Positions 7,766 through 10,979 of a stretch of DNA of 64,000 nucleotides are shown one piece after another (positions within the stretch are counted from its first letter, which is position 1; each line of letters begins with the position of its first letter). Source of the stretch: Synechococcus elongatus PCC 11801 (GTDB lineage: Bacteria > Cyanobacteriota > Cyanobacteriia > Synechococcales > Synechococcaceae); assembly GCF_003846445.2 (NCBI RefSeq), contig NZ_CP030139.2, forward strand, positions 1,839,223-1,903,222, in the 5' to 3' direction. The notes beneath the pieces were generated by a model that was not told the DNA's origin, did not search any database, and worked only from the letters and a program-made list of their open reading frames with translations. A program made the translations under genes and the position numbers.

Positions 7766-8398
7766 ATGCCTCAGTTCGCGTTTCCCGATCGCTTCTTTGT
7801 GACTGGCACCGATACGGATGTCGGCAAAACGGTGGTTTCGGCCTTATTGGCAGCGGGTTTGGGCGCGAGCTACTGGAAGCCAGTGCAGTGTGGATTGGAA
7901 GGCTTGGGCGGCGATTGCGATCGCGTAGCGGCTTGGGCGGGGTTGACGCCCGATCGCGTTATTCCCGATCGCTACCGACTCGAAGCGCCACTGTCGCCTC
8001 ATTTGGCCTCGCGGCTGGAGCAGGTGCAGATCAACCTCCAAGATTTTCAACTGCCGGAAGTCTCGGGTCCGTTGCTTGTGGAAGGGGCGGGCGGTTTGCT
8101 GGTGCCCTTAAACGAGCGGGATTTGATTCTCGATTTGATTCGCCAGTTTCAGTTGCCGGTCGTGTTGGTGGCGCGTAGCAAGCTGGGGACGATTAATCAC
8201 ACGTTGCTCTCGATTGCGGCGCTGCGGGCAGCCGAGGTGCCGATTCTGGGCGTGGTCGTCAACGGCCCGCGCAACCCCGAGAATTGCGCTGCGATCGCCC
8301 ACTATGGCCAAGTGCCGATTTTGGCGGAGCTGGAACCCTTACCAGCGCTGAATCCGCAAATTCTCAAAGACACCTTCAACCAGCTTTTCCATGCCTAG
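7766..8398 (+). CDS. bioD: dethiobiotin synthetase
   Basis: ATP-dependent carboxylase that closes the ureido ring, turning 7,8-diaminopelargonate and CO2 into dethiobiotin. 210 residues from ATG 7766, five bases after the bioC stop; a TTG 24 bases upstream is in frame but less likely. The P-loop GTDTDVGKT lies at residues 14-22, and the substrate/metal motif VEGAGGLLVPL follows near residue 106. GTINHT and VVNGPRNP match the nucleotide-recognition segments of the family. The last 8 bp overlap the start of bioA. Confidence 0.95.
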   Translation: MPQFAFPDRFFVTGTDTDVGKTVVSALLAAGLGASYWKPVQCGLEGLGGDCDRVAAWAGLTPDRVIPDRYRLEAPLSPHLASRLEQVQINLQDFQLPEVSGPLLVEGAGGLLVPLNERDLILDLIRQFQLPVVLVARSKLGTINHTLLSIAALRAAEVPILGVVVNGPRNPENCAAIAHYGQVPILAELEPLPALNPQILKDTFNQLFHA

Positions 8399-9665
8399 CC
8401 ATCCGCACCTTTGGTTCCCCTTCACGTCGGTGAAAGATGCGCCGGATCCGCTCAAGGTGGTGTCGGGACGTGGGGCTCGTTTGACGCTGGCGGATGGCCG
8501 CGAGCTGATCGACTGCATTTCCAGTTGGTGGGTAAATCTGCACGGTCATGCCCATCCGCAGATTGTGGAAGCGATCGCCCAGCAAGCGGCAACGCTGGAG
8601 CATGTGATTTTTGCGGGCTTTAGCCATGAGCCAGCTGAACGTCTGGCGATGGAACTCTGCGAGATTCTGCCGGAAGGACTGACGCGGGTTTTCTTCTCGG
8701 ACAACGGTTCGACAGCGGTGGAAGTGGCGCTGAAGATGGCGCTGCAGTATTGGCACAACTTAGATCAGCCGCGATCGCGCATTTTGGCCTTTGACGGGGC
8801 TTATCACGGCGACACCTTTGGGGCGATGTCGGTCGGTGAGCGATCGCTGTTCAATGCGCCATTCGAAAAGCTGCTGTTCAGTGTCGAGTTTTTGCCCTAT
8901 CCCGAGACGTGGTGGGGTGATGAAACCGTTGCGGAGAAAGAGGCAGCGGCGATCGCGGCAGTGGAGCAAGCGCTAGCGGCGGGCGATGTGGCGGCGGTGA
9001 TCCTGGAGCCATTGGTGCAAGGCGCGGGTGGGATGCGGATGGCGCGTCCGCAGTTTTTGCAACAACTCGCGGCCAGGGTGCAAGTGGCAGGGTCGCTGCT
9101 GATTGCCGATGAAGTGATGACGGGTTTTGGCCGAACAGGGGCTTGGTTTGCTTGTCAGCGAGCGGGCATTCAACCGGATTTGATCTGTCTGTCGAAAGGA
9201 CTAACGGGAGGCTTTTTGCCGCTCTCGATTACGGTGGCAACTGAGGCGATTTACGACACCTTTTGCAGTGGCAATCCTGACCACACTTTCTATCACGGCC
9301 ACAGTTATACGGCGAATCCATTGGGTTGTGCTGCAGCGATCGCCAGCTTAGATCTGTTGCGAAAATCAGAAGCGATCGTGCAGGGCTTAGAAGCCGCGCA
9401 TCGACCTGGGTTGGAGTTGTTAGCGCAGCATCCAAAGGTGACGAAGCCCCGCTTGACTGGCGATGTTGCAGCTTGTGACTTAGTCAGCGATCGCGGCGGC
9501 TATCTTGACCCAATTGGCTTGCGCGTTCGTCAAGCTGCGATCGCCCGTGGGTTGCTCCTGCGTCCACTCGGGAATGTTCTCTATCTGCTCCCGCCCTATT
9601 GTCTGGAACCTGCTGAAATTCAAGAAATTTATGCTGCGATCGCTGATCTTTTAGATGAAATTTAA
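8391..9665 (+). CDS. bioA: adenosylmethionine-8-amino-7-oxononanoate aminotransferase
   Basis: Class III PLP aminotransferase that uses SAM as amino donor to convert 8-amino-7-oxononanoate to 7,8-diaminopelargonate. 424 residues. It has the BioA-specific CISSWWVNLHGH near residue 42, DNGSTAVEVALKMA, the GAYHGDTFGAM motif, the cofactor Asp in LIADEVMTGFGRTG and the Schiff-base Lys269 in CLSKGLTGG. Some cyanobacteria replace BioA with BioU; this window keeps BioA. A diverged second copy of the last 81 bp lies about 0.73 kb downstream, on the far side of a toxin-antitoxin pair. bioB is not in the window. Confidence 0.96.
   Translation: MPSHPHLWFPFTSVKDAPDPLKVVSGRGARLTLADGRELIDCISSWWVNLHGHAHPQIVEAIAQQAATLEHVIFAGFSHEPAERLAMELCEILPEGLTRVFFSDNGSTAVEVALKMALQYWHNLDQPRSRILAFDGAYHGDTFGAMSVGERSLFNAPFEKLLFSVEFLPYPETWWGDETVAEKEAAAIAAVEQALAAGDVAAVILEPLVQGAGGMRMARPQFLQQLAARVQVAGSLLIADEVMTGFGRTGAWFACQRAGIQPDLICLSKGLTGGFLPLSITVATEAIYDTFCSGNPDHTFYHGHSYTANPLGCAAAIASLDLLRKSEAIVQGLEAAHRPGLELLAQHPKVTKPRLTGDVAACDLVSDRGGYLDPIGLRVRQAAIARGLLLRPLGNVLYLLPPYCLEPAEIQEIYAAIADLLDEI
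9576..9656 (+). repeat. left copy of bioA 3'-end direct repeat
   Basis: This 81-bp piece of the bioA 3' end is repeated in the same orientation at 10391-10470. By hand alignment, 69 of 81 positions match, with 11 substitutions and one 1-base gap. The copies bracket about 734 bp that hold the Doc/AbrB pair. Uninterrupted shared cores include CTATTGTCTGGAA and GCGATCGC. Confidence 0.85.
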
Positions 9666-9670
9666 GTCGA

Positions 9671-10084
9671 TTATTCATTGTTATTAATAATTTCGCTATT
9701 GTTCATTAACCAGTTTTCCAGCCTCTCCATGCATTGTTCTTGGGTTTCGAGACTGGCTGCCAAATCTAAGAACATATTTACTGCATCAACCTCTGAGGCG
9801 GTAAGCTCAATTCCGTTAATGAATAAGAAAGTGTAAACAGCAATTAAGGCAATGCGTTTATTTCCATCTACAAAGCAATGATTTTTGGTGAGTCCGTAAC
9901 CATAGGCTGCCGCTAACTGATATAGAGTGATATCATTGCCATATAGATAGAGATTAATGGGCTTGCTCAAGGTTGACTCAAGAGCGTCCTCACTGAGTAA
10001 TCCTGATGCGCCTCCAGATTCTGCAATAATTTCACCATGAATTGCACAAATGTCATGAGTATCTAGCCAATAAGGCTCTATCAC
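9671..10084 (-). CDS. doc: Fic/Doc-family toxin
   Basis: 137 residues. The core HCFVDGNKR at residues 69-77 matches the Doc version of the Fic motif (HxFx[D/E][A/G]NKR); Doc proteins phosphorylate elongation factor Tu and stop translation. Doc-like features also include the N-terminal WLDTHDICAIH and LLSEDALESTLSKP segments. The start is GTG 10084, overlapping the antitoxin stop by 4 bp (GTGA), the usual coupling of antitoxin-first TA operons. The gene is AT-rich with no HIP1 site, unlike flanking genes, and its 3' end lies 5 bp from the bioA stop in a tail-to-tail arrangement. Toxin identity is strong; activity is not demonstrated. Confidence 0.9.
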   Translation of the reverse strand: MIEPYWLDTHDICAIHGEIIAESGGASGLLSEDALESTLSKPINLYLYGNDITLYQLAAAYGYGLTKNHCFVDGNKRIALIAVYTFLFINGIELTASEVDAVNMFLDLAASLETQEQCMERLENWLMNNSEIINNNE

Positions 10085-10302
10085 TTGGCTAGCTCAATGA
10101 GAGCATTTCGATACTTTTTCATACCTCGTCGCGCCGCCTCAATTTTTTTTACAAAATTAGGATCGCAGGCTGAAATCTCATAGCCTGAAGGTGTTTTTGT
10201 TGCGAACAGAATATCTCCATCTTCAACATTCATGCTTATTGCCATTTCTTTAGGAATGATCACACTGAGTGAATTTCCTCGTTTTTTAACGCTTAGCTTC
10301 AT
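10081..10302 (-). CDS. AbrB/MazE/SpoVT-type antitoxin
   Basis: 73 residues from ATG 10302 (MKLSVKKRGNS); an upstream frame extension is possible but starts poorly. The swapped-hairpin DNA-binding signature is visible: KKRGNSLSVIIPKEMA, then VEDGDILFATKTPSG. The C-terminal half (NFVKKIEAARRGMKKYRNAL) is basic and would wrap the toxin. It is the first gene of the two-gene operon with the Doc toxin. By analogy with this class, the protein should neutralise Doc and repress its own promoter, which would lie in 10303-10390, between the gene and the bioA remnant. Confidence 0.85.
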   Translation of the reverse strand: MKLSVKKRGNSLSVIIPKEMAISMNVEDGDILFATKTPSGYEISACDPNFVKKIEAARRGMKKYRNALIELAK

Positions 10303-10640
10303 AAGAAATCCTCTAAGTAGACTCTTGGTGGATGGCTCCAACTGAATGTTACTACAAATGTTGCTACGTGCAACTGCCCTTCTGGAGATTGTTCTCCATC
10401 TGCTCCCACTCTATTGTCTGGAAGCTGCTGAGCCACAAGAGATTTATACTGCGATCGCCGTCTTTTAGATCAGACTTAGATCCTCAGTGCTAACTTCATA
10501 AAAACTTCTGATTTCTAAAGAAGATCTAAAAAATCTAAATTAATAGTTATTTAAACTTTAATCTACAAAAAATGCAGTACATGCTTTAATGTTTCTGCTT
10601 TGTTCTTTAGTGGTTCTCCCTAGAAGGCTTAGGAATCAGG
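10303..10640. other. 338-bp gap: TA promoter region, bioA remnant, AT-rich leader
   Basis: Three parts can be told apart. 10303-10390 lies directly upstream of the antitoxin and probably carries its promoter. 10391-10470 is the diverged copy of the bioA 3' end. 10471-10640 is very AT-rich (runs such as TCTAAAAAATCTAAATTAAT) and leads into the membrane protein gene at 10641. The only GCGATCGC site between the bioA end and about 11.4 kb is the one inside the bioA remnant. Confidence 0.6.
10385..10470 (+). pseudogene. remnant of bioA 3' end (right copy of direct repeat)
   Basis: Frame +2 from 10385 reads 27 codons to a TAG at 10466-10468. The peptide includes VLHLLPLYCLEAAE and QEIYTAIAV, matching VLYLLPPYCLEPAE and QEIYAAIAD at the bioA C-terminus (18 of 26 residues identical). 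No bioA sequence precedes it, so this is an isolated tail with no start codon. It is a diverged duplicate of 9576-9656, about 85 percent identical in DNA, and marks the right border of the inserted toxin-antitoxin segment. Confidence 0.85.
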
Positions 10641-10979
10641 ATGTCTGAAGTTGATTTGTGGCAATCTAGTAATTATTTATTAGGCATTGGAGCTGCGCTC
10701 CTTGTTCTAGTTGTTTTCGCTTCTTTATTCTGGCTTTTAAGGCTACTTGCTAATGTCTTAATCTGGATAACTATCTGTATCTGCGCTGTACTACCTTTCT
10801 TTATTTTGCAATCTGATACTCTATCTTCAAACTCTGATATTTGGAGTTTTTCAGCCGTTTTAGGAGCTGCTTGCGCGGTTGTCTGTCTAGCGATCTATCC
10901 GTACTCAAGTATGTATGAAAATAAGATCAAAGAAAAAATTGAAAAAGCATTGCTTCTCGATCGCGATTTAAATATTTAG
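10641..10979 (+). CDS. hypothetical small membrane protein
   Basis: 112 residues, not recognised. Three hydrophobic segments are visible: about 13-35 (LLGIGAALLVLVVFASLFWL), 38-56 (NVLIWITICICAVLPFFIL) and 68-88 (SAVLGAACAVVCLAIYPY). A short charged tail follows (NKIKEKIEKALLLDRD). GGAATCAGG just before the ATG can serve as a ribosome binding site. Base use is far more AT-rich than in the neighbouring operons and there is no HIP1 site, so it probably belongs to the same acquired island as the TA pair. Whether it is expressed is uncertain. Confidence 0.6.
   Translation: MSEVDLWQSSNYLLGIGAALLVLVVFASLFWLLRLLANVLIWITICICAVLPFFILQSDTLSSNSDIWSFSAVLGAACAVVCLAIYPYSSMYENKIKEKIEKALLLDRDLNI

Follow-up and report, generated by a model that had tools for sequence, protein, structure and literature searches.

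A toxin-antitoxin pair between two copies of the bioA end

The window analyzed here, a 64-kb stretch of Synechococcus elongatus PCC 11801 DNA, contains an intact bioA gene (8391..9665, plus strand; 424 aa; TIGR00508, 541 bits, and PF00202) followed by two small genes that lie on the minus strand, convergent with it. The first of these (9671..10084), whose stop codon abuts that of bioA, encodes a Doc (death-on-curing) toxin of 137 aa (PF02661, 3.6e-16; TIGR01550, 3.7e-19) with the Fic motif HCFVDGNKR; the second (10081..10302), overlapping doc by 4 bp, encodes a Doc-partner antitoxin of the AbrB/MazE fold, 73 aa from ATG (TIGR02609 'doc_partner', 2.8e-16, and PF04014, both above cut-off). As in type II toxin-antitoxin (TA) modules, a Fic/Doc domain with an HxFxDGNKR-type motif is found here together with an adjacent small antitoxin gene.

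A spacer (10303..10386) separates the antitoxin start from a second copy of the bioA end. The last ~93 bp of bioA, up to the stop codon (9572..9664, plus strand), constitute the upstream, functional copy; the downstream copy (10387..10478, plus strand) is a dead fragment of the bioA 3' end and closes off the cassette on the right. The Doc/AbrB pair is thus immediately flanked on both sides by direct repeats of roughly 100 bp (93 alignment columns, about 83% identity, one gap). The score of this alignment, 104, was reached by none of 300 dinucleotide-preserving shuffles (mean 16.9, maximum 28), and an ungapped core of 77 nt, 9567-9643 against 10382-10458, is 83% identical. The homology ends at the bioA stop codon, with none beyond it. 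The 1-bp deletion that the downstream copy carries brings its frame to a premature stop at 10466-10468 ('...IYTAIAVF*').

An earlier note on this DNA had described an 81-bp repeat of the bioA end, at 85 percent identity, around a Doc/AbrB pair with no other gene and no integrase. The repeat is real and its dimensions are close to those measured here, the four profiles (PF02661, TIGR01550, TIGR02609, PF04014) confirm the pair, no other gene lies in the interval, and the 64-kb window yielded no match to the tyrosine recombinases (PF00589). A tRNA was sought in the same 64 kb as well, and none was found.

The same site in the sister species

In the genome set compared, the genus contains only one other genome (G001), and the family and the order likewise comprise two genomes including that of the window. 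The layout in G001 is that of the window: the bioA end, a cassette, a dead bioA end and the same downstream genes. The bioA protein is 95% identical to that of the window, and the second, decayed bioA end, a repeat of about 130 bp and 82% identity, lies 0.9 kb further on. The cassette itself consists of a gene for an MntA-type nucleotidyltransferase and one for a HepT-type HEPN RNase (PF01909, 5.9e-16, and PF01934, 3.8e-27; in NCBIfam, the equivalog thresholds of 60 bits are not reached). As in type VII-like modules, the MNT nucleotidyltransferase adjoins the HEPN RNase, and the pair is antitoxin-first and convergent with bioA, like Doc/AbrB in the window.

Between the cassettes and spacers of the two genomes, no homology was detected above shuffled controls, and the same comparison yielded no element ends or att core common to the two cassettes. 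Outside the cassettes, the genomes are homologous, to the left over bioA and to the right over ~560 bp; the right side is 74% identical over 562 bp, and its alignment beats 300 of 300 shuffles. In the window, this right flank (10479..10979, plus strand) consists of a non-coding stretch and an ORF of 112 aa (10641-10979). The ORF product is membrane-protein-like, with no Pfam or NCBIfam match above cut-off; the ORF is intact in the window and frameshifted in G001 (L009, 4594-4924, minus strand).

Thus the same bioA site holds Doc/AbrB in one species and an unrelated MntA/HepT pair in the other, so that different addiction modules have occupied one site in two species; both genomes of the family have it occupied, and in neither was a related element with an integrase seen there. 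The repeat that brackets them is host sequence, the bioA end, and not part of the element: each of the unrelated cassettes is flanked by the respective host's version. The proposal of the earlier note that the bioA 3' end is a cassette site is supported accordingly, the comparison of the region downstream of bioA having turned up a different cassette in the congener.

Doc, HepT and their antitoxins are ordinary members of known families with a patchy, horizontal distribution. Doc has no match in G001, and in distant cyanobacteria it has relatives with 63-78% identity; for the HepT toxin of G001, too, the closest relatives occur in distant cyanobacteria, with only a weak match in the window's own genome (G000).

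Two further features of the repeats were noticed. The GCGATCGC octamer (HIP1), at 9636-9643 and 10451-10458 of the window, is intact in all four bioA-end copies of the two species, both dead ones included. The left border GCCCTT shared by the two dead copies looked suggestive in the alignment and was set aside as not significant.

Bracketing repeats around TA pairs in cyanobacteria

We took the closest homologs of Doc and HepT from 390 cyanobacterial genomes and surveyed as much as 20 kb of surrounding sequence for direct repeats of at least 35 bp that tightly bracket the TA pair. Such repeats were found at 15 of the 56 Doc or HepT pairs, against an expectation of 0.31 derived from mock intervals placed within those regions. 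Among non-TA gene units, the count was 6 of 393 (P = 1e-10, a value that treats related loci as independent, the surveyed loci being the top matches to two toxins and not independent samples); judging by their sequences, four of these six units are probably TA genes, too. The other 41 of the 56 pairs have no bracketing repeats, and TA pairs in the gap between an MmeI-like gene and a helicase gene, described below, are among them.

The bracketing repeats are of mixed kinds. They include dispersed repeats as well as copies of neighboring gene ends or of the 5' part of the downstream gene (L194, L198, L211). In a Microcystis-like genus (L160-L167), the Doc cassette lies nearly always between GCGATCGC-containing repeat arrays of the AACACGATCGCCCAATCAC type, whereas other positions are rarely bracketed in this way. 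These tandem or dispersed repeats, as well as a MITE-like repeat at L183, do not represent copies of gene ends; they were treated separately. For this reason, the statistics were also computed without that repeat-rich genus (g23), which leaves 8 of 47 TA pairs against 2 of 304 non-TA units (P = 2e-6, with the same reservation on independence).

The gene-end copies involve several targets. In G036, the end of argZ is copied after an MntA/HepT pair (146 bp, 87%). The targets (bioA, MmeI, argZ and the 5' part of a DUF433 gene) differ in sequence, and the repeats range in length from 37 to 368 bp. A separate survey of DUF2281 antitoxins, covering 12 loci, produced one clear bracketed case (G061). 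A 120-bp direct repeat (97.5%) was also seen beside a DUF2281 antitoxin gene in G058 (L234).

A parallel system between MmeI and helicase genes

The end of a gene for an MmeI-like type IIG restriction-methylase is duplicated in a similar manner. At 13 of 37 loci, one to four extra copies of its last 100 codons are present, and TA or other defense-type genes lie between the copies. Four control segments, one internal to MmeI and three in the helicase gene, were duplicated in none of the 24-34 genomes in which they were sought. All loci with extra MmeI 3' copies have an MmeI-helicase gap of at least 1.3 kb; two empty genomes, with gaps of 9 and 15 bp, have a single MmeI 3' end.

The cargo varies from genome to genome. 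A copy of the MmeI 3' end follows MntA/HepT in G176, a RelE-like pair in G114 and DUF2281/PIN in G061; in G017 and G119, the end recurs three to four times between successive TA pairs, forming arrays. As at bioA, G176 and G061 have the upstream and downstream genes in common and differ in the cassette. The G061 repeat (207 bp, 99%) is, by its near identity, apparently the product of a recent, nearly fresh event.

In a tree of the MmeI copies (the trees of 3' copies rest on 100-150 columns), the extra copies are sister to the intact end of their own genome in 7 of 12 genomes (G061, G363, G035, G081, G119, G185, G236; support 89-100), which argues for local duplication, repeated in many lineages. 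The copies of G017, G160, G058 and G114 stand apart from their own intact ends, so some of these may be older or cassette-borne. The duplication is one-sided throughout: the 3' end of the upstream gene is always the part that is copied, the 5' end of the helicase gene never. This bias is more specific than blind target duplication followed by selection predicts and is not fully explained by these; reuse of an existing repeat by recombination could contribute.

Several additional observations concern this gap. It is a hotspot, in many cyanobacteria, where TA pairs and AlbA_2-, RhuM- and Fic-like genes are found (L193 1-4000, L280, L276, L284), and it extends to 7.3 kb in one genome. The window's own genome has an MmeI-helicase pair on a small contig (L289; G000 contig 3, 12000-21000, reversed), with an antitoxin-like and a HigBA-like pair in between; the MmeI 3' end has no extra copy there, and its matched portion contains a stop codon. 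In G236 (L300), two copies of the MmeI 3' end (368 bp, 88%) enclose an ORF of 254 aa (1067-1831) without a Pfam match; it has a weak PADLOC match (PDC-M04A) and may be an unrecognized toxin or defense gene.

Origin of the duplicated ends

In a maximum-likelihood tree of the four bioA-end copies (98 columns), the copies pair within genomes (bootstrap 100, 200 replicates), with short branches for the intact ends and long ones for the dead ends; four sites of the alignment favor this pairing and one is against it. The earlier note had taken one copy to be native and the other to have been brought in. The tree runs counter to that idea: within each species, the nearest neighbor of either copy is the other one, which is not the pattern expected from an imported foreign bioA end. 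Within-genome pairing points either to local duplication of the target or to later homogenization by gene conversion; on its own, in such a short alignment, it is modest evidence.

The layout at bioA is explicable without an integrase. We consider it probable (roughly 0.6) that the Doc/AbrB pair is an addiction-module cassette inserted at the bioA end with a long target duplication and no integrase, and the recurrence of the layout at other cyanobacterial genes suggests that TA pairs insert without a known recombinase, copying a stretch of the target. In such a scheme, the cassette would enter at the bioA end and duplicate about 90-130 bp of the target, so that a complete end of bioA is kept on one side and a second copy of the end is left on the other. 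Keeping the invaded gene complete on one side may be why that gene survives. The element would require no integrase of its own; the likely agents would be host repair or replication, together with RecA-dependent recombination. Once in place between direct repeats, the cassette could be swapped or deleted by homologous recombination. Its deletion would be selected against by the toxin, addiction thereby acting as a stabilizer, and this punishment of loss may be why TA pairs are found between repeats. Repeated at other genes, the same process would yield TA arrays separated by partial copies of the end of the upstream gene.

A more far-reaching version can be put forward only tentatively: TA modules would be autonomous recombinase-free cassettes that regularly insert next to gene ends, copying about 100-400 bp of the upstream 3' end and forming integron-like arrays in which the separators are the host gene's own end. 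If so, the strict bias toward the MmeI 3' end (13 of 37 loci versus none for the four control segments) would imply a dedicated or replication-coupled mechanism and not random breakage with selection.

It is rather unlikely, in our judgment, that the bioA end was duplicated only once, along with some cassette, before the two species split, and that only the cassette was exchanged afterwards, through homologous recombination of the RecA type, while gene conversion homogenized the copies. The site, the right flank and the side of the repeat are indeed the same in both species; incoming DNA would pair via bioA, the repeat or the right flank, the body of bioA and that flank acting as homology arms, and S. 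elongatus strains can be naturally competent, as shown for PCC 11801 (PMC6226537). A single old duplication, however, requires conversion to account for the within-genome pairing of the four copies, and the dead copies of the two species have different 5' borders; furthermore, it leaves the first event itself and the lineage-specific MmeI copies unexplained.

It appears improbable that an integrase, acting in trans or since lost, integrated the cassette site-specifically at the 3' end of bioA, in the manner of cis-mobilizable elements or other islands in gene 3' ends, the repeats then being attL and attR. The position at a gene 3' end and the direct repeats at both borders would suit such an event, and tyrosine recombinases are present elsewhere in the window's genome, but none was detected in the window, and the within-genome pairing contradicts an imported att copy. 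The lack of any end sequence common to the unrelated cassettes implies that nothing recognizable by an enzyme travels with them, and the diversity of targets and repeat lengths described above is equally at odds with a site-specific enzyme. Very improbable is the possibility that the downstream fragment, a decayed bioA end in the same orientation, is the remnant of a whole tandem bioA duplicate between whose members a TA pair landed by chance: neither species has more than the last 90-130 bp, the same right flank borders the fragment in both, partial ends recur around TA pairs at other genes, and a repeated bioA end, sought at 29 of 80 distant bioA loci (at most 60% identity), was not found there apart from two 20-bp matches of chance length.

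Relationship to known mobile systems

How TA modules that lack a recombinase move from chromosome to chromosome is a long-standing question, and such movement is usually credited to plasmids, phages or islands. With insertion at the bioA and MmeI ends as proposed above, the sequence itself displays the borders of the insertions; such borders are enriched around TA pairs, and one of them (207 bp, 99%) apparently stems from a nearly fresh event. How TA modules enter a chromosome can be tested in naturally transformable cyanobacteria, by comparing strains and by simple genetics. Insertion of this kind also offers a reason for the persistence of cassettes between direct repeats that should delete them: the toxin punishes the loss.

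The modules themselves resemble known Doc/AbrB-partner and MntA/HepT modules in being gene pairs, in their domains and catalytic motifs and in their patchy horizontal distribution; unlike in typical modules of these kinds, a repeat of a host gene end is found here at both borders. Islands in gene 3' ends, among them the cis-mobilizable elements (CIMEs), also have flanking direct repeats that include the gene 3' end and lack recombination genes. The cassettes described here share these features but have no att core or ends in common; their repeats are long and variable, several unrelated genes are targeted, and the copies derive from the host's own gene. Chromosomal integrons, likewise, consist of arrays of small cassettes, many of them TA modules, separated by a repeated sequence, as are the arrays found here. 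Unlike integrons, these arrays showed no integron integrase, and they are divided by ends of coding genes, apparently not by attC sites. Integron arrays with TA cassettes are treated in PMC11023631.

The closest parallel in the mode of insertion is with restriction-modification systems. In the open-licence literature searched, we found no earlier report of insertion with long target duplication for TA modules; the mode resembles the known proposal for restriction-modification systems, and a search combining it with TA modules brought up only a review of restriction-modification and TA systems. Restriction-modification systems inserted with long target duplication were reportedly described by Nobusato et al. 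(2000) and Furuta et al. (2010). In a review (PMC3874152) and a later paper (PMC3031569), this mode of insertion is set out for restriction-modification systems, which are addiction modules themselves. In both settings, a selfish, addiction-type pair lies between direct copies of ~100 bp of the target, there is apparently no linked transposase, and the target gene is intact on one side. Unlike in the restriction-modification case, the cassettes found here, in cyanobacteria, carry TA modules of type II or of a type VII-like kind, one gene end is used repeatedly, giving rise to arrays with up to four extra copies, and unrelated modules occupy one site in two species. This border structure, already proposed for restriction-modification systems, would link TA modules to them.
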